Source: Olivibacter sp. SDN3
GTDB taxonomy: Bacteria > Bacteroidota > Bacteroidia > Sphingobacteriales > Sphingobacteriaceae
Assembly (NCBI RefSeq): GCF_014334135.1
Contig: NZ_CP060497.1
Coordinates: 5,084,001 to 5,148,000 of the forward strand
Direction: 5' to 3'
DNA: 64,000 bases
Part shown: piece after piece, positions 6,531 through 41,748 of the stretch
How the letters are laid out: the number at the start of each line of letters is the position of its first letter
Position numbering within the stretch: the first letter of the stretch is position 1
Notes under the pieces: generated by a model
Seen by the model: only the letters and a program-made list of their open reading frames with translations
Databases searched by the model: none
Told to the model about the DNA's origin: nothing
Position numbers and translations under genes: made by a program

Positions 6531-7310
6531 TTAAACACCCATCTTGTTTGCCAAACAGTACTCAGCGCTTTCTTTATCTAAATACAGGCGTGCACTTCGG
6601 TGTGTTCTCAATATCGTTGATGGAAATTCAGTAGATACCCTTTCAGATAACGTATTTTTAACCGCCGAAGCTTTGGTAGCTCCAGGAACCATACAAAAAA
6701 TGTGCGCAGCTCCCATAAGTGTCGGAATTGTTAGTGTAATGGCTCTTAAAGGCACTTGGTCTAAGCGTTCAAAACAACCATCATTAACTTGCTGACGTCT
6801 GCATGCCGCGTCTAAGCTAACGATTTTCACGCGCTTTGGATCCTCAAAATCTGCCTCGGGCGGGTCATTAAACGCTATGTGGCAATTTTCACCTATTCCC
6901 ATGCAAACGATATCCGGAGGATACTGATCGAGTAGTTCGGCATATGCTCTACATGCTTCTTCCATACGTTCCGCACTTCCATCGATATAATGTACCTCGC
7001 GGAAAGACACTTTCGAAAAAATATGCCGATGTAAAAAATTACCAAAGCGCTGTGGCGCGGAGGCTGGCAAACCGACATACTCATCCATATGGAAAGCACG
7101 AATATTATTCCAATTAATGGCTTTATTTTCTATCAGAGCAGCTAAGAACTCGTTCTGAGAAGGGGCTGCGGCAAAAATAACGTTCAAGAGCTTGTCTCCT
7201 TGCTGTAACTGTAAAATTTTTTCTGCCACATCAGCAGCAGCAGCTCTACCCAGTTCGCTACGATTAACGTTTACTTGAACTTCCAATTGATCAACTTTGT
7301 GCGCTATCAT
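6531..7310 (-). CDS. nagB: Glucosamine-6-phosphate deaminase
   Basis: The enzyme converts glucosamine-6-phosphate to fructose-6-phosphate and ammonia in the cytoplasm. Family motifs are HMDEYVGL (general-base Asp), GIGENCHIAFNDPP (ring-opening His) and TIPTLMGA near the C-terminus. The usual glycine before that His (ENGH) is Cys here, a mild oddity. The length, 259 aa, fits the family. I chose the ATG at 7310 because AAGGA sits 10 bp upstream; a TTG at 7316 would be too close to it. The start lies inside the 3' end of nagA (20 bp overlap), so the two are coupled. It is the last gene of the amino-sugar operon. Confidence 0.92.
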   Translation of the reverse strand: MIAHKVDQLEVQVNVNRSELGRAAAADVAEKILQLQQGDKLLNVIFAAAPSQNEFLAALIENKAINWNNIRAFHMDEYVGLPASAPQRFGNFLHRHIFSKVSFREVHYIDGSAERMEEACRAYAELLDQYPPDIVCMGIGENCHIAFNDPPEADFEDPKRVKIVSLDAACRRQQVNDGCFERLDQVPLRAITLTIPTLMGAAHIFCMVPGATKASAVKNTLSERVSTEFPSTILRTHRSARLYLDKESAEYCLANKMGV

Positions 7311-33519: not shown

Positions 33520-33668
33520 ATTAAGAGTATTAGACGGAAGTAAATATAAGGATAGTTTGTATTATGATATATCAGTTTAATGCAGTTTTGAAAACGCTAC
33601 ATGCAAAAAACCATAAACTATATAACTTCTTCTGGTCAAAATATAAAAGCTGCTATTTATTTTTTTTA

Positions 33669-33676
33669 TACCTTTG
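33669..33676 (+). promoter_or_regulatory. Candidate -7 promoter box before the HYC_CC_PP gene
   Basis: TACCTTTG matches TAnnTTTG 6 bp before the preferred GTG start at 33682, which would make the message leaderless. If the ATG at 33601 is the true start, the match lies inside the gene and is fortuitous. Confidence 0.25.
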
Positions 33677-33681
33677 TACTA

Positions 33682-34086
33682 GTGAAAAAGTTATTTGCTT
33701 TCATATTGGCCTTTTTATACCTTGGCATCGCCACCGGGTTTAGCACATATACCCATTATTGTATGGATCGATATGTGGAAACTACTTTGTGGCAAATAGA
33801 TATGAGCAAATGCGGTGCCTGTGGCATGTCAAAAGACAAATCTTCCGCTGAAAAAAAATGTTGTAAAGAAGAACACAAACAGCTTAAACTAGAGAAAGAT
33901 CACAAAGCGGCTACAGAGATATCGTATAAATATCTTCAGGAGCTGCCTGCCATACTTCTTCACACGGATGTTTTACGTCCTGCAAAAACGTTAACGAATA
34001 TTGCGATAGATTATCCATTTAGTCATGCACCTCCCGATAAAGCATATCACACCATCTATATGCTAAATTGTATCTACAGAATTTAA
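33682..34086 (+). CDS. HYC_CC_PP family metal-associated exported protein
   Basis: The family name describes the motifs: HYC in THYCMDRYV, CC in EKKCCKEEHKQ and PP in SHAPPDKAYH. Two further Cys lie in CGACGMS, so several Cys/His residues could bind copper or another soft metal. The N-terminus (KKLFAFILAFLYLGIATGF) is an export signal beginning at the GTG at 33682. An ATG at 33601 in frame would add 27 residues before the signal and is less likely. It precedes the CusA-like operon, where this family usually occurs. The function is unknown beyond the association with metal efflux. Confidence 0.78.
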   Translation: MKKLFAFILAFLYLGIATGFSTYTHYCMDRYVETTLWQIDMSKCGACGMSKDKSSAEKKCCKEEHKQLKLEKDHKAATEISYKYLQELPAILLHTDVLRPAKTLTNIAIDYPFSHAPPDKAYHTIYMLNCIYRI

Positions 34087-34248: not shown

Positions 34249-35544
34249 ATGGTCCACAACATCATCGATTGGTCATTGCGTAACCGCTATATTGTTTTGG
34301 TGCTTAGCGTCGGATTATTCGTGTGGGGAGCCTTTTCTGTTAAAAAAAATCCTATTGATGCCATTCCCGATTTATCCGAAAATCAAGTTATTATTTTCAC
34401 AGAATGGATGGGCAGATCCCCGCAACTCATTGAAGATCAGATAACTTACCCGTTAGTCACTAATTTACAAGGGCTTCCCAGTATTAAATACGTTCGCGGC
34501 AGCTCTATGTTTGGCATGAGCTTCATCTACATCATCTTTGACGACGAAACGGATATCTATTGGGCACGGGAACGTGTTCTGGAACGGCTGAGTACAATAG
34601 GTAGCACGCTCCCAACCGGTGTAGCACCAACGCTCGGACCTGACGGTACCGGTGTTGGCCACGTATTATGGTATACCTTGGATGCTCCTAATGTTGATTT
34701 GGGAGAGCAACGTGCCATACAAGATTGGTATGTAAAATTTGCGCTTCAGAATGTACCTGGGGTGAGTGAAATCGCATCTTTTGGCGGTTTCCAAAAACAA
34801 TATCAGGTAACCATTGATCCCAATAAGTTGCTATACTATAAACTGTCGGTACCAAATGTAATAAACGCCGTGCGTACCAATAACAATGAAAGTGGTGGAC
34901 GTAAATTTGAAATGAGCGACGTAGGATATATTATTAAAACAAGTGGTTATCTACAATCTAGAGAAGATATCGAACAAATTCCCATCTCCAATCAACAGGG
35001 TAATCCGATCCGGATATCGGATATTGGCACAGTACAGATGACGGGAGAACCGCGCTTGGGTATTTTTGATCAAGACGGAGAAGGAGAACGCGTAGGAGGT
35101 ATTGTGGTCATGCGTTATGGAGAGAATGCTGCAGAGGTTACAGAAAAGGTAAAGAATAAAATGAGAGAAGTAACGAAAGGTCTTCCAGAAGGTGTGAAAT
35201 TTGATATTGTATACGATCGCGGAAAACTTATTAAAGAATCAGTAGATTCTATCAAACATACCTTAATAGAAGAAATGATCGTAGTATCCCTAGTTGTCAT
35301 TATCTTTTTATTCCACTGGAAAAGTGCCTTAAGTATTATTATACAGATTCCTATCACTATTGCGATCAGCTTCATCTTACTGAATGCCTTTGATATTTCA
35401 TCGAACATCATGTCCTTAACAGGTATCGCGTTGGCAATTGGTGTGATCGTAGATAACGGCATTATTATGAGCGAAAATGCTTATAAGCATTTAGCAGAGA
35501 AATATGAAAGTAGGGAACAACAGGAGCATTTAAAAAGTAAGTAA
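34249..35544 (+). CDS. CusA/CzcA heavy-metal RND permease, N-terminal part (split gene)
   Basis: The 431 residues cover the first part of an HME-RND pump: TM1 (YIVLVLSVGLFVWGAFSV), the first periplasmic loop with IKYVRGSSMFGMSFIY, and TM2 to TM4 with the proton-relay Asp in GVIVDNGIIMSENA. The protein stops at TAA 35542-35544, in the cytoplasmic loop between TM4 and TM5. The next gene starts 1 bp later in another frame with the rest of the pump. Normal family members are single chains of about 1040 residues; the two parts sum to 1075. A single extra A in the AAAAA run at 35532-35536 would explain the break (see findings). Confidence 0.85.
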   Translation: MVHNIIDWSLRNRYIVLVLSVGLFVWGAFSVKKNPIDAIPDLSENQVIIFTEWMGRSPQLIEDQITYPLVTNLQGLPSIKYVRGSSMFGMSFIYIIFDDETDIYWARERVLERLSTIGSTLPTGVAPTLGPDGTGVGHVLWYTLDAPNVDLGEQRAIQDWYVKFALQNVPGVSEIASFGGFQKQYQVTIDPNKLLYYKLSVPNVINAVRTNNNESGGRKFEMSDVGYIIKTSGYLQSREDIEQIPISNQQGNPIRISDIGTVQMTGEPRLGIFDQDGEGERVGGIVVMRYGENAAEVTEKVKNKMREVTKGLPEGVKFDIVYDRGKLIKESVDSIKHTLIEEMIVVSLVVIIFLFHWKSALSIIIQIPITIAISFILLNAFDISSNIMSLTGIALAIGVIVDNGIIMSENAYKHLAEKYESREQQEHLKSK

Positions 35545-35545
35545 C

Positions 35546-37480
35546 ATGAATTGGTTGAAAAGATTGTTTAAACGAACACCCCAATGGATCTCCGAAGAAG
35601 AACGCCTGGAAATCATCGGAAAAAGCAGCAAACAGGTTAGCCGCGGAGTTTTCTTTGCTACTATTATCATCATCACTTCCTTTTTACCAGTATTCATGCT
35701 TACTGGCCAAGAAGGCAAACTTTTCCATCCATTAGCTTTTACGAAAACGTTTATTATGATGGTTGACGCTTTATTGGTCATTACGTTAGCACCTGTACTG
35801 ATTTCGTTCTTCATGAAAGGAAAATTCCGACCAGATAACGCCAATCCAATTAATCGATTTTTGGAGAAAATATACGAGCCATTGATCAAGCGCGTATTGA
35901 AATGGCGGAATACAACCATCGCGATCAATGTCATTGCACTGCTAATCACCATCCCCCTCTTGAAAAGGCTGGGAACAGAATTTATGCCTCCTTTGGACGA
36001 ACAAAGTATTCTTTTCATGCCGGTGACCTTACCAGACATTAGTAACAGCGAAGCGAAACGTATATTACAGGTACAAGACAAAATTATTAAAAGCGTACCA
36101 GAAGTAGACAAGGTGCTGGGTAAAGCAGGTCGAGCGAGTACAGCTACAGATAATTCTCCTATTAGCATGATTGAAACGATCATTATGTTGAAACCCAAGA
36201 ACCAATGGCGTGAAAACATGACAAAAGAAAGGCTGATACAAGAATTAGATACAAAGTTACAGATTCCCGGAGTTGTTAATGGTTGGACTCAACCGATAAT
36301 TAACCGGATAAACATGTTGGCTACCGGTATTCGAACTGACGTAGGCGTCAAAGTATTTGGTCAAAATATCGATACAATAGCCGGCATTTCAGAGCGGGTA
36401 CGCGATGCTTTAGAAGGAACGCCAGGAGTTCAAGATTTATTTGTTGAACCGATTACGGGCGGTAAATATCTGCATGTGGATGTGAATAGAGAAGCTCTTG
36501 CCCGATATGGGCTTACCGTCGATGACGTCAATCAAACGGTCGAATCAACCATTGGGGGTGCCAATATTGGTCAGACCATTGAAGGTCGCAGACGCTTCAG
36601 CATCAACCTGCGTTTATTACAGGATCATCGTAATAGCATCTCCCAACTAGGTCGTGTTCCCTTACAGAGCCCTACTTTTGGCGAAGTTCCGCTTAGTGCT
36701 GTAGCAACAATCGATTACGAAAACGGCCCACCCATGATCACTTCAGACAACGCCATTCTTCGCGGGGCGGTCATGTTTAACGTACGTGACCGGGACCTGG
36801 GAAGCACCGTGCAAGATGCAATGGAAAAATTGAATAACGCCGATAATATTGTTCCTGAAGGATATTTTCTCGAGTGGAGCGGACAGTACGAAAACCTTAT
36901 TCGCGGACAACAAACGCTCCTATGGATAGCACCTGTTGTATTGGTAATTATTTTCTTTGCCTTATATTTTGCATTCCACTCCATAAGGGAAGCCTTTTTA
37001 AGCTTAGTAACCATTCCGTTTGCATTAATAGGTGGTGCTTACATGATCTACTTCTGGGGAGTCCATCTTTCTGTAGCTGTCGCCGTAGGTTTTATCGCTT
37101 TGTTCGGAATAGCTGTAGAAACAGGTATTGTCATGGTAATTTATCTGAACGACGCGATGCAGCAACTGGTAAAATTAAAAGGAAATAGCAGCGAAACGAT
37201 AACTAAAGAAGATCTCAGACAATATGTTATCAGAGGAGCAGCAAAAAGATTAAGGCCCAAACTCATGACGGTCTGCGTATCCTTATTTGGTTTGCTTCCG
37301 GTGCTATGGGCTACCGGTGTGGGTACAGATGTTATGCGACCAATTGTACTACCTATGATCGGTGGTGTACTCACCTCATCCACACATATTTTATTGGTTA
37401 CGCCATTAATTTTTCTGATGACGAAAGAATACGAACTACGCAAATATGGAAAATTGGAAATTTATGATGCTAAACATTAA
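35546..37480 (+). CDS. CusA/CzcA heavy-metal RND permease, C-terminal part (split gene)
   Basis: The 644 residues begin MNWLKRLFKRTPQWI and enter TM5 (SRGVFFATIIIITSFLPVFML) with no export signal. The second periplasmic loop, with TPGVQDLFVEP and the metal-pathway region, and the remaining membrane segments through the usual C-terminus follow. The ATG is 1 bp after the TAA of the first part and in the +1 frame relative to it. If the two are made as separate chains, assembly would require complementation at the TM4-TM5 loop. Downstream channel and adaptor genes are intact. Confidence 0.85.
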   Translation: MNWLKRLFKRTPQWISEEERLEIIGKSSKQVSRGVFFATIIIITSFLPVFMLTGQEGKLFHPLAFTKTFIMMVDALLVITLAPVLISFFMKGKFRPDNANPINRFLEKIYEPLIKRVLKWRNTTIAINVIALLITIPLLKRLGTEFMPPLDEQSILFMPVTLPDISNSEAKRILQVQDKIIKSVPEVDKVLGKAGRASTATDNSPISMIETIIMLKPKNQWRENMTKERLIQELDTKLQIPGVVNGWTQPIINRINMLATGIRTDVGVKVFGQNIDTIAGISERVRDALEGTPGVQDLFVEPITGGKYLHVDVNREALARYGLTVDDVNQTVESTIGGANIGQTIEGRRRFSINLRLLQDHRNSISQLGRVPLQSPTFGEVPLSAVATIDYENGPPMITSDNAILRGAVMFNVRDRDLGSTVQDAMEKLNNADNIVPEGYFLEWSGQYENLIRGQQTLLWIAPVVLVIIFFALYFAFHSIREAFLSLVTIPFALIGGAYMIYFWGVHLSVAVAVGFIALFGIAVETGIVMVIYLNDAMQQLVKLKGNSSETITKEDLRQYVIRGAAKRLRPKLMTVCVSLFGLLPVLWATGVGTDVMRPIVLPMIGGVLTSSTHILLVTPLIFLMTKEYELRKYGKLEIYDAKH

Positions 37481-38741
37481 ACATTTCATATACAGCACAT
37501 TAAAAGTTATTTACACCATTCTGCTGCTACCGATGGCATTGCATGCTCAACAGAGCAATGAGGTGTTATCGCTTGATACGATCTTACAACGTATTGATCA
37601 ACAGAACGTAAAACTTAAAGTTTATGCTTTAAAAGGAAAAAGTTTTGAATACAGTGCACAATCTGCTACATCATGGATGGCGCCGATGGTGGGGGCTGGT
37701 ACTTTTATGACTCCCTATCCCGGACAACGGGTCATGAACGATGGCGACAAAGGAGCGCTTATGTTCAATATCGAACAAGAGATACCTAATCCCAGCAAAC
37801 AACAAGCAAACAAACAGTACATTCAATCGCAAAGTGTGATAGAAGAAGCTAACCGTGCAGTTGATCTCAACGAGTTAAAGGCACAGGCAAAAACGCTCTA
37901 CTATAACTGGACTATCGCTGAAAAACGTATAAATCTTCTAAAAGAAAATGAACAGTTAATCAATAGTATGAAGCAACTGGAAACTATCCGCTACGAGTAT
38001 AACCAGTCACAACTTAGCAATGTATACAAGCTCGAGGCTCAACTGGAAGAAAATCATAATATGTTGCGTATGCAAGAAGCAGAAATTGCCCGCTCTAGAG
38101 CATGGTTAAACAGCTTGATGAATCAATCTGCAAATAACTCCTTTGCTATAGATACGGCTTTTAAACCAACATTTATATTGGAAGCTTCGTTAGACACCAC
38201 AGTGTTAGCAGAACGGAGAAAAGATATCCAAAAAATGAATGCCGATATACAAACGATGCGTCACGGCATTGATGCCATGAGAAGCGAACGGAAACCCGAT
38301 TTTAAAATCCGTTTTGACCACATGGCTCCTCTGGGAAACATGATGCCTAGGGCATACAGTATAATGGGAATGGTAAGTATCCCAATAGCTCCATGGAGTA
38401 GTAAGATGTATAAAAGCGAAACAAAGGCCATGCAACTGAATCTTGAGGCCATGCAGAAAGAACGCCAAGGAATGCTACTTGAAAGTCAAGGAATGATCTA
38501 TGGCATGCAGCATGAAATAGCTAGTATGAAAGAGCGCATTAGAAGAATAGAACAGAAAGTTATTCCAGCACTCCAACGCTCAATGGAAGCAAACTTTCAA
38601 TCTTACCGTGAAAACAAACAGCAACTACCTACTTTATTAGCTGATTGGGAAGCACTTAACATGATGCAAAACACCTTATTTGACGAGAAGTTAAAGTTCT
38701 ATCAAATGATTGTAAACTATGAAAAGGAATTATATAAATAA
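37446..38741 (+). CDS. TolC-like outer-membrane channel protein of the metal-efflux operon
   Basis: The 431-residue protein has an N-terminal export segment (ending about HAQQ, residue 36) and a TolC-family coiled-coil core (LKAQAKTLYYNWTIAEKRI, NVYKLEAQLEENHNM). Met residues are frequent (for example MVGAGTFMTPYPGQ and MRHGIDAMRSERK), as in metal-efflux channels. Starts at 37446, 37464 or 37467 are possible; all overlap the end of the permease gene, and the later ones give a shorter signal. The gene overlaps the next adaptor by 23 bp. Confidence 0.83.
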   Translation: MENWKFMMLNIKHFIYSTLKVIYTILLLPMALHAQQSNEVLSLDTILQRIDQQNVKLKVYALKGKSFEYSAQSATSWMAPMVGAGTFMTPYPGQRVMNDGDKGALMFNIEQEIPNPSKQQANKQYIQSQSVIEEANRAVDLNELKAQAKTLYYNWTIAEKRINLLKENEQLINSMKQLETIRYEYNQSQLSNVYKLEAQLEENHNMLRMQEAEIARSRAWLNSLMNQSANNSFAIDTAFKPTFILEASLDTTVLAERRKDIQKMNADIQTMRHGIDAMRSERKPDFKIRFDHMAPLGNMMPRAYSIMGMVSIPIAPWSSKMYKSETKAMQLNLEAMQKERQGMLLESQGMIYGMQHEIASMKERIRRIEQKVIPALQRSMEANFQSYRENKQQLPTLLADWEALNMMQNTLFDEKLKFYQMIVNYEKELYK

Positions 38742-39930
38742 AATATTAGCACTAGTGTTACTATTATTTATACAGGCTTGTTCATCAACAAAGGAAGAAC
38801 ACGCAACATCTCATGAAGCTCATGGATATGAAACTGTTGACACAACAATCCTTCAGCTTACGGGAGCAACTAATCGGCAAATAGTTAGCAATACACCAAC
38901 TATTTCGGTGGAAAAAGGTTCCAAAGTATTACCTATTAATATCTCCGGACGGATCATTTACGACAATCGTAATGCCACCTCTATTAGTAGTAGGATAAGT
39001 GGAAGAATTGAACGTTTATATGTCAAGTATAATTACCAACCAGTCAAGAAAGGCCAGCTCCTTTTGGAGATCTATTCACCTGAATTAGTAACTGCTCAAC
39101 GCGAGTTATTAATGCTACATCAACAGCAGGATGAAAAATTATTGCAAGCAGCGGTTCAGAAATTACAGTATTTAGGTTTCAGCGCTGAGCAAATACAGCA
39201 ACTTTTACAATCAAAAAATGTTTTATACCGGGTTCCAATTTATAGTCCTGCCAGTGGATATATTCTTGAAAAACCAGTGACCCCACCCTCTTCTACAGTA
39301 AATACAATGGCTTCCGTAGGAGATGCTCCTGAGGGAGAAATGGATGGTATGAATAATTCATCAAGCAACCAGCAAGACATTTCTAACTCATCTGCCAGTG
39401 CTCCAGCTCCGGTTATACTGCGAACGGGTCAATACCTCTCAACCGGGCAAACAATTTTTAACATCTACACAAATACAGATTTAATCGCCGAGTTTGCGAT
39501 TCCGCCTTCAATAGCCACACAAATTCAAAAGGGCAAAAAGGTATTGTTTAATAAATTAAGTGATACTGACGAAAGTTACCTGGGGGAAATAAGGCTCATT
39601 CAACCAACCTTTAACGCGGGTGAAAATTTTAGTCTGGCGAGGGTTTATTTAAAAAAGAACGCATTTACTGTCGGAGAATTACTAAATGGAACCGTAGCAA
39701 TAACCACACACGAAGGTTACTGGCTCCCAAAACAAGCAGTTATCCGCTTAGGAAAGAAAAGTGTCGTATTCAGAAAAGAAGGGAGAATATTTCGTCCGAT
39801 CTCTGTCAATACAGGGATTAGTACTGCAAATATGATACAGGTACTAAATCCAATTGAACATTGGCTTATCGCCGAAAACGCGTCTTATCTAGTTGATAGT
39901 GAAGACTTCATTATTTCAGACGATGAATAG
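38719..39930 (+). CDS. RND efflux periplasmic adaptor (CusB-like) lipoprotein 1
   Basis: The 403-residue lipoprotein (lipobox FIQAC, Cys about 21) begins with a His-rich metal-binding stretch (EEHATSHEAHGYE). The lipoyl/hairpin core follows (SSRISGRIERLYVKYNYQPVKKGQLLLEIYSPELVTAQREL, about residues 92-130) with a Ser/Asn-rich insert (about 195-235) that is longer than usual. It bridges the CusA-like pump and the TolC-like channel. A second adaptor follows at once, so two different adaptors may serve one pump. Confidence 0.87.
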   Translation: MKRNYINKILALVLLLFIQACSSTKEEHATSHEAHGYETVDTTILQLTGATNRQIVSNTPTISVEKGSKVLPINISGRIIYDNRNATSISSRISGRIERLYVKYNYQPVKKGQLLLEIYSPELVTAQRELLMLHQQQDEKLLQAAVQKLQYLGFSAEQIQQLLQSKNVLYRVPIYSPASGYILEKPVTPPSSTVNTMASVGDAPEGEMDGMNNSSSNQQDISNSSASAPAPVILRTGQYLSTGQTIFNIYTNTDLIAEFAIPPSIATQIQKGKKVLFNKLSDTDESYLGEIRLIQPTFNAGENFSLARVYLKKNAFTVGELLNGTVAITTHEGYWLPKQAVIRLGKKSVVFRKEGRIFRPISVNTGISTANMIQVLNPIEHWLIAENASYLVDSEDFIISDDE

Positions 39931-39950: not shown

Positions 39951-41162
39951 ATGAACAGAAAATATTTTTTAAAAACACTCCTGTGGTCCGCGATCCTACC
40001 TTCTTTGCTGTTAGCGTCCTGTAATAGCAAAGAAAATAAGGAAACAGAAGTGGATGCAACAGCAACAAATACTTATACATGTCCTATGCATCCACAAATC
40101 ATACAGAACAAAGCTGGCACTTGTCCGATATGTGGTATGGATCTCGTTCCTTTCGACAAAAATAATAAAGATGCCTTTTTAACACTAAGTAAAGATCAGC
40201 AAGTATTAGCTAATATTAGTATAGTAGCAGTCGGGACAGGAGCGTTCAATAATTATACTTCAATTAATGGTAGGCTTGTCGTAAATCCCGAGGGCACTAA
40301 CTATATCAGTAGTCGGAATGATGGACGTATTGAAAAACTATATGTGAAGGAAACTGGTATCGCTGTACGTAAAGGGCAACCCCTTTATACTTTATACTCT
40401 GAAGAACTGCTCACATTGCAGCAAGAATTTCTAATAACACACAAACAAGCTAAGCAATTTGCAAAAGATAAAAGGTTTGCAGCTATTTTCGAGGCTGCCA
40501 AGCAAAAGTTACTATTATACGGACAAAATTCCCAGCAATTAGATCTTTTGTTGGCAAAAGGGCAGCCCGCACCATCCGTCACCATATACGCACAAAACAC
40601 TGGTATAATAGCAGAGATTTTAGTAACGGAAGGACAATATGTAAATGAGGGGACATCTATGTTCAATCTAGAAAACTATCAAAATTTGTGGGTAGAGGCC
40701 GATATTTATCCGCATGAAGCATCATTGATAAAAGAAGGGCAAGAACTTAGTGTTTTGATAGGTAACGATACTACGCATCATAAAATGACTATACAGTTCA
40801 TCACACCCGTTTTACAAAATAACGCACAAGTTAGGCAACTCAGGGGAACGATTGATAATCACGCGCACCAAATGCTCCAAGCAGGTATGCCTGCCACCAT
40901 TTTACTGTCTCGCTCATCGGCCTCGAAAACAATAACCGTCCCAACCAACGCCATTATCAACAACGGAAAAAGTAGTCATGTCTGGGTGACCACAACAAAT
41001 GAACGGTTTGAGCCGAAAGCAGTTACTATCGGCAACGCATCACTGAACCGTACAGAAATCATTTCTGGACTGGAAGAAGGAGAACGGGTAGTTATCAGTG
41101 GAGCATATCTACTCTATAGTGAATATGTTTTGAAAAAAGGAGGACAACCGTTAGATCAATAG
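39951..41162 (+). CDS. RND efflux periplasmic adaptor lipoprotein 2 with heavy-metal-binding domain
   Basis: The 403-residue lipoprotein (LLLASC, Cys about 24) carries an N-terminal heavy-metal-binding domain (YTCPMHPQIIQNKAGTCPIC, residues about 41-60, continuing GMDLVPF). This domain is widely fused to CusB-type adaptors and copper ATPases. The lipoyl-hairpin-barrel core and the C-terminal domain with ITVPTNAIINNGKSSHVWV follow. It starts 20 bp after the first adaptor. The Cys/Met/His cluster suggests copper or silver binding; the metal is not proved by sequence. Confidence 0.9.
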   Translation: MNRKYFLKTLLWSAILPSLLLASCNSKENKETEVDATATNTYTCPMHPQIIQNKAGTCPICGMDLVPFDKNNKDAFLTLSKDQQVLANISIVAVGTGAFNNYTSINGRLVVNPEGTNYISSRNDGRIEKLYVKETGIAVRKGQPLYTLYSEELLTLQQEFLITHKQAKQFAKDKRFAAIFEAAKQKLLLYGQNSQQLDLLLAKGQPAPSVTIYAQNTGIIAEILVTEGQYVNEGTSMFNLENYQNLWVEADIYPHEASLIKEGQELSVLIGNDTTHHKMTIQFITPVLQNNAQVRQLRGTIDNHAHQMLQAGMPATILLSRSSASKTITVPTNAIINNGKSSHVWVTTTNERFEPKAVTIGNASLNRTEIISGLEEGERVVISGAYLLYSEYVLKKGGQPLDQ

Positions 41163-41193: not shown

Positions 41194-41748
41194 ATGAAAA
41201 CAACTCATTTAAAAATCGGAATCGCGGTTATCGCTGCCTTAAGCTTTTTTATGTCATGTACATCCGCTGATAATAGCGATAAGCATCAAGATCATAAACA
41301 GCATGAAGAAAATGTTGTTGAAGACAATAGTTCAATAACGGCTACCTCGAACAACGATAGTTTCAATGCTATCTATCCCCATTATCTGACCTTGCAGGAA
41401 GCATTGGTAACAGAAGATGCTAAAAAAGCAAAGGAGGCGGCTCTTCTAATCGAAGAGGCCGCGGAGCATCTACCTGCTAACTCAAAGAGCATTAAAACGG
41501 CAGCCGGTGAAATTTTGGCCTCGGGTACCATTGAAGAGCAACGTGCTAATTTCTCTCCTATGAGCGATGCACTTATTAACTTAGCAAAAGCTGAAGGTGT
41601 AAGTTCGGGTGAGTTTTATATAGCACATTGCCCTATGGCGTTCAACAACCAGGGAGCCAATTGGTTAAGCCCATCAAAATCTATTAAAAACCCTTATTTC
41701 GGAGATAAAATGCTCAGTTGTGGGACTGTAGAAGAGACTTTAAATTAA
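41194..41748 (+). CDS. DUF3347 lipoprotein of the metal-efflux operon
   Basis: The 184-residue exported protein has a lipobox (FMSC, Cys about 22), a His-rich linker (DKHQDHKQHEENVV) and a DUF3347 helical domain with FYIAHCPMAFNNQGANWLS and a final DKMLSCG. The conserved Cys-Pro-Met and second Cys are typical of this family, which occurs with CusA/CusB systems and is suspected of periplasmic metal handling. It is the last gene of the operon, 31 bp after the second adaptor and before a hairpin. Confidence 0.87.
   Translation: MKTTHLKIGIAVIAALSFFMSCTSADNSDKHQDHKQHEENVVEDNSSITATSNNDSFNAIYPHYLTLQEALVTEDAKKAKEAALLIEEAAEHLPANSKSIKTAAGEILASGTIEEQRANFSPMSDALINLAKAEGVSSGEFYIAHCPMAFNNQGANWLSPSKSIKNPYFGDKMLSCGTVEETLN

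Follow-up and report, generated by a model that had tools for sequence, protein, structure and literature searches.

A probable two-chain CusA-type RND permease encoded by split genes in Olivibacter sp. SDN3 and related Bacteroidota

Results

The window, a 64,000-nucleotide stretch of the Olivibacter sp. SDN3 chromosome (6.1 Mb, single contig), contains a CusA-type RND permease that, on direct reading of the sequence, is encoded by two ORFs in different frames. The permease genes and their operon neighbors are as follows.

33601..34086, + strand: small protein of the HYC_CC_PP family (NF047658), the upstream operon gene in most relatives read
34249..35544, + strand: N-half of the permease (431 aa), with TM1-TM4 and the first periplasmic porter region
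35532..35548, + strand: junction, with A-run, TAA (35542-35544), one base, and ATG (35546-35548)
35546..37480, + strand: C-half of the permease (644 aa), with TM5-TM12 and the second porter/docking region
37446..38741, + strand: outer membrane factor of the CusC/TolC type (PF02321, OEP)
38719..39930, + strand: periplasmic adaptor 1, CusB type (PF16576)
39951..41162, + strand: periplasmic adaptor 2, CusB type (PF16576 plus heavy-metal-binding domain PF19335)
41194..41748, + strand: DUF3347 protein (PF11827), the last conserved operon gene

The permease halves are adjoined by adaptor and outer membrane channel genes. The order HYC_CC_PP, N-half, C-half, outer membrane factor, two CusB-type adaptors, and DUF3347 was found in 64 of 83 loci. 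When the seven operon proteins were scanned by profile, none matched the CusF family.

At the junction, the run AAAAA (35532-35536) lies ahead of the N-half stop, and the C-half ATG follows one base past the TAA, in the +1 frame. Upstream of this ATG, the C-half frame is open for just 11 nt, counted through the N-half TAA. The initial annotation had described a CusA-like pump in two adjacent ORFs, and its coordinates, stop, start, and A-run all proved correct on re-reading.

The two ORFs divide the family profiles between them. The N-half matched positions 1-422 and the C-half positions 418-1019 of PF00873 (1021 positions), and the corresponding stretches of TIGR00914 (1051 positions) were 1-431 and 428-1036. 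Since each chain scored below the curated single-chain cut-off of TIGR00914 (458.6 bits for the N-half and 632.1 bits for the C-half; cut-off, 701.45 bits), we class the pair as a two-chain variant and not as a standard single-chain member. Judged by this profile coverage, both ORFs jointly are one RND permease of nearly full length. The closest solved structures were CusA chains (PDB 3k07, the HME-RND permease CusA of Escherichia coli, and others), aligned over 5-418 at an E value of 3.7e-120 for the N-half and over 16-624 at 2.2e-168 for the C-half. From these alignments and the known topology of RND permeases, the cut site is placed in the cytoplasmic TM4-TM5 loop, in agreement with the initial annotation.

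The alignments with the solved CusA chains were also used to transfer CusA positions to the halves. We assumed the CusA numbering to be M573, M623, and M672 for the Met triad and D405, E939, and K984 for the proton relay. In the window, these residues correspond to Met 158, Met 208, and Met 257 of the C-half, to Asp 402 in TM4 of the N-half, and to Glu 525 and Lys 572 of the C-half; the relay Asp is on the N-chain, and the Met triad, Glu, and Lys are on the C-chain. All 145 split C-half rows had the Met triad, and in rows with a letter at the position, the relay was kept at Asp in 142/142, at Glu in 133/133, and at Lys in 130/133 (some rows repeat one gene). Three C-half rows were without the relay Lys.

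The dN/dS values (NG86) of both halves were between 0.009 and 0.031 in seven hand-chosen close pairs, which means strong purifying selection. Because dS was infinite (saturated) in comparisons with Olivibacter relatives, only these seven pairs are quoted. Furthermore, the distance matrices of the N- and C-halves were correlated with r = 0.968 over 145 rows, while the maximum in 200 permutations was 0.190; such matched distances are expected of subunits that are inherited together. The C-chain began with residues that varied and were often basic, and a conserved W-I-x-E-E-x-R-L came next; this region may be a membrane-surface anchor. AlphaFold2 modeling of single halves was of low confidence, with a mean pLDDT of 63.7 for the N-half (32 sequences) and 47.3 for the C-half (35 sequences).

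The same genome harbors a paralogue (C1, approximately 311686-314917, minus strand) that is approximately 85% identical and likewise split. Here too, one base separates stop from start if the nearer ATG is chosen. In the operon of the paralogue, the DUF3347 gene is located upstream of the N-half rather than at the operon end.

GTDB representatives were scanned with the C-half, which retrieved at least 592 relatives. The best-scoring 80 of these, all with 80-90% identity, were used, and the permease was split in 80 of the 80 named loci. Junctions were read via a motif in 77 loci and via tblastn in 79, with L076 read by motif alone and L079, L094, and L138 by tblastn alone. The genera with split loci include Pedobacter, Chitinophaga, Olivibacter, Nubsella, Flavihumibacter, Flavobacterium, Telluribacter, and Persicitalea. 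With a split in every one of these 80 top-scoring relatives, chance is not a sufficient explanation.

Two wider surveys, in which three candidates were scored per genome and which had some genomes in common with other surveys, covered the phylum and the class. In 395 phylum genomes (even draw), the top 30 matches (at least 766 bits, 24 genomes) were all unfused, with C-half frames of 643-728 aa. Matches at or below 725.6 bits were in frames of approximately 1030 aa or more, save five listed at 622-913 aa, of which one was inspected; frames of 720-913 aa were in G371, G402, G433, and G449. In 395 class genomes, 62 matches in 53 genomes were obtained at an E value of 1e-180, and 58 of these were unfused by frame length (631-728 aa). 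The remaining four (G083, G875, G635, and G077) were fused, as confirmed at the junction for all four. Unfused matches reached down to 708.8 bits in the class survey, whereas fused matches of family f60 reached up to 725.6 bits in the phylum survey; therefore, score alone cannot separate the two kinds in this range.

Single loci deserve mention. A lone C-half next to an unrelated gene in G463 was left out of the counts, and one locus in G003 (C73) was truncated by the contig end. In a split copy at G011:C1:2298342-2301575, the C-half contains a premature TGA and also changes frame; this copy is apparently decaying. The automated start search gave no ATG at L030 or at L223.

Split genes were also found in plasmid records. 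In six of 12 such records (60-80% identity), the C-half match overlaps with two features named "efflux RND transporter permease subunit", and in a Fibrella plasmid record, two neighboring genes carry this annotation. In the record of Spirosoma linguale pSLIN01, there is no CDS row over the pump, yet both ORFs are intact; the tag Slin_6821 is missing from the gene table of pSLIN01, a table without pseudogenes.

Other CzcA-like matches, in this genome (C1:5923743-5925551 and C1:3387805-3389634) and in many relatives, were located in open frames of approximately 1450 aa. At six similar loci (L211-L216), the tails resemble outer membrane factor sequence when judged by eye. These frames suggest RND-outer membrane factor fusions in the same phylum that splits the permease.

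C-half trees placed the split forms in one clade. The largest had 157 rows, of which 131 were split and 26 were fused, and there were 3 state changes versus 24.5 with shuffled states, although this was a quick tree with long-branch warnings. The split clade had a support of 100/99 in a tree with 47 rows, with two fused forms nested in it. In a tree with 46 rows, four fused forms were nested and 4 state changes were counted. Here, fused G635 grouped with split G728 with a support of just 86/81, so that the number of re-fusions is two or three. The simplest reading of these trees would be a single fission within a CusA clade of Bacteroidota, followed by the re-fusions; given the 4 state changes, more independent fissions could have occurred instead.

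The architecture of the junction varied among the relatives. Over 79 named loci, the frame offset of the C-half was 2 in 60, 1 in 17, and 0 in 2, and the stop-to-start spacing ranged from -14 to +686 bp, with 72 loci within -14 to +11 bp and 7 at 168 bp or more. An ATGA-type overlap (-4) was present in 32 loci. The frames overlap in 71 loci, including the window, and in the other 8 there is no stretch with both frames open ahead of the stop. A-runs before the N-half stop were seen by eye in many named junctions, which have Lys-rich tails.

In several lineages, the halves are separated by other genes or by repeats. A methyltransferase gene lies between them in Chitinophaga japonensis, and a different methyltransferase is found at this place in four genomes of three genera in family f53 (G476, G500, G534, and G575). 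The f53 methyltransferases are 77-100% identical to each other (Pfam assignment from G476), and no match between them and the C. japonensis methyltransferase was detected at an E value of 1e-3. Related methyltransferases, 56-59% identical, are encoded between the halves in f53 (L148 and L201-L203) and directly after the N-half in G766 (L258, reverse strand, 1254-1871). Methyltransferases beside split CusA genes in distant lineages may be part of the metal operon. Further intervening genes encode a 23S rRNA intervening-sequence protein (G042), small proteins with the heavy-metal-binding domain PF19335 (G664 and G676, loci L260 and L261), and a protein without family assignment (G690); an HMBD gene between the halves of L223 is visible in L261. 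In Nubsella, the halves lie 248 bp apart, and this spacer is filled with palindrome-like repeated units (L070, approximately 6745-6990).

Moreover, eight genomes from seven families (G837, G744, G787, G641, G869, G766, G302, and G318) have a reordered operon, intact and on one strand, in which the C-half is followed by the outer membrane factor, adaptor 1, adaptor 2, and finally the N-half. One or two extra genes precede the N-half in G744 and G766. No second N-half was detected in six of the reordered genomes searched at an E value of 1e-100, and in G302 and G318, the remaining N-like matches had 35% identity and were within frames of 1039-1453 aa. With the C-half ahead of the N-half, in-order reading of one mRNA cannot make a full-length pump in these genomes. 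All six residues of the Met triad and the relay were kept in 8 of 8. Six reordered genomes formed one clade with an SH-aLRT of 100 in a quick tree that had long-branch warnings and left out G302 and G318. In the loci read, N-half and C-half belong to the same operon, except for contig-edge cases and the lone C-half in G463.

These data bear on programmed +1 frameshifting, which the initial annotation had offered as one explanation and which would yield a full-length pump, perhaps alongside separate chains. Beside the A-run of the window, the two frames have 11 nt in common, and no stop would stand in the way of their joining; the +1 offset is common to 17 of the 79 named loci, and A-runs ahead of the stop are frequent, as described above. 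However, the offset is not conserved (2 in 60 loci and 0 in 2), eight loci leave no room for a slip, and in other genomes the halves are separated by genes or repeats or stand in the reverse order. With such variation in offset, spacing, and order, frameshifting was rejected as a general mechanism, and we consider it very improbable as the explanation of the split. Some frameshifted full-length product may be made where the frames overlap and A-runs precede the stop.

Discussion

We propose, with a probability of about 0.91, that the two genes descend from an old fission and encode a two-chain CusA, in which separately translated halves would form one protomer of a six-chain trimer exporting Cu(I)/Ag(I). 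The initial annotation had also raised the possibility that the pump truly consists of two chains, divided in a cytoplasmic loop, and this possibility has gained support beyond the evidence of the window itself, the split being old and widespread. According to this model, a cusA-type gene in Bacteroidota broke long ago into two genuine genes, and each half would be translated from its own start. Since stop and start are one base apart in the window, the C-half is here probably translated by coupled re-initiation. The N-chain would insert TM1-4 with the first porter region into the membrane, and the C-chain TM5-12 with the second. With the cut on the cytoplasmic side, a 4-TM N-chain and an 8-TM C-chain would keep the RND topology. 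The chains would then meet in the membrane and join non-covalently into one CusA protomer, and the trimer would comprise three N-chains and three C-chains. Together with the CusC-type channel and the CusB-type adaptors of the operon, this six-chain pump would export Cu(I)/Ag(I), the presumed substrates. The Asp of the N-chain and the Glu and Lys of the C-chain would be brought together by assembly only.

In a broader and rather doubtful version of this proposal, the RND protomer would have been turned, across a Bacteroidota clade, into two freely separable subunits. The halves could then be expressed or positioned independently of each other or be swapped between paralogous pumps, and operon genes would be interposed as between ordinary subunits.

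Alternatively, the halves could have separate jobs or other partners, for example if the two split copies in the genome exchanged halves. The presence of these two copies is in line with this, as is the separation of the two genes in other species. But with the above-mentioned exceptions of contig edges and the lone C-half in G463, the loci read have both halves in the same operon, their distances co-vary (r = 0.968), and the catalytic residues are distributed over both, and we give this explanation little chance. The initial annotation had also considered a recent frameshift or a sequencing error, and a homopolymer does lie just ahead of the N-half stop. Such a mutation, or an assembly error, in a single-gene cusA can practically be dismissed, as the paralogue is split, as is every one of the 80 named loci, and both halves are strongly constrained in the pairs tested. 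The possibility of a pseudogene was rejected as well: there was no relaxed selection (dN/dS of 0.009-0.031 in seven pairs), and the split did not occur sporadically but in 80 of 80 named loci.

The proposed two-chain pump resembles CusA in that the halves cover it, the Met triad and the relay residues are kept, and CusC- and CusB-type genes are in the operon. It differs from CusA in its division into two polypeptides, with the boundary between TM4 and TM5, in having two adaptors, and in the absence of a CusF family match from the seven operon proteins scanned. Single-chain CusA/CzcA proteins (TIGR00914) from family f60 of the Bacteroidota and, outside this phylum, from Pelobacter pPRO1 are approximately 51-52% identical to the C-half. 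In contrast to the split pump, the Pelobacter permease is encoded by a single CDS of 3138 bp, with adaptor and channel genes alongside, and the f60 permeases are encoded in one open frame, mostly of 1047-1100 aa. The latter were outside the split clade in the C-half trees, from which Pelobacter was left out.

To our knowledge, RND permeases are regarded as single 12-TM chains. The RND-superfamily machine SecD/SecF or SecDF is known as two genes and as one, SecD and SecF being two 6-TM halves; unlike these, split CusA is cut into 4 plus 8 TM, inside the first repeat. MdtB/MdtC is an RND pump of two different polypeptides, both of them full-length 12-TM permeases. Split CusA likewise comprises two different polypeptides, but neither of its chains is full length. 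Among the matches listed from the open-licence PMC literature, which represent a part of it, we found no description of a split CusA or split RND permease; this is weak evidence of absence.

Split pumps can escape annotation, as exemplified by the pSLIN01 record without a pump CDS. An old and selectively kept cut that lies within the first repeat of six helices and spreads the proton relay over two chains would be a direct natural test of RND folding, assembly, and proton coupling.
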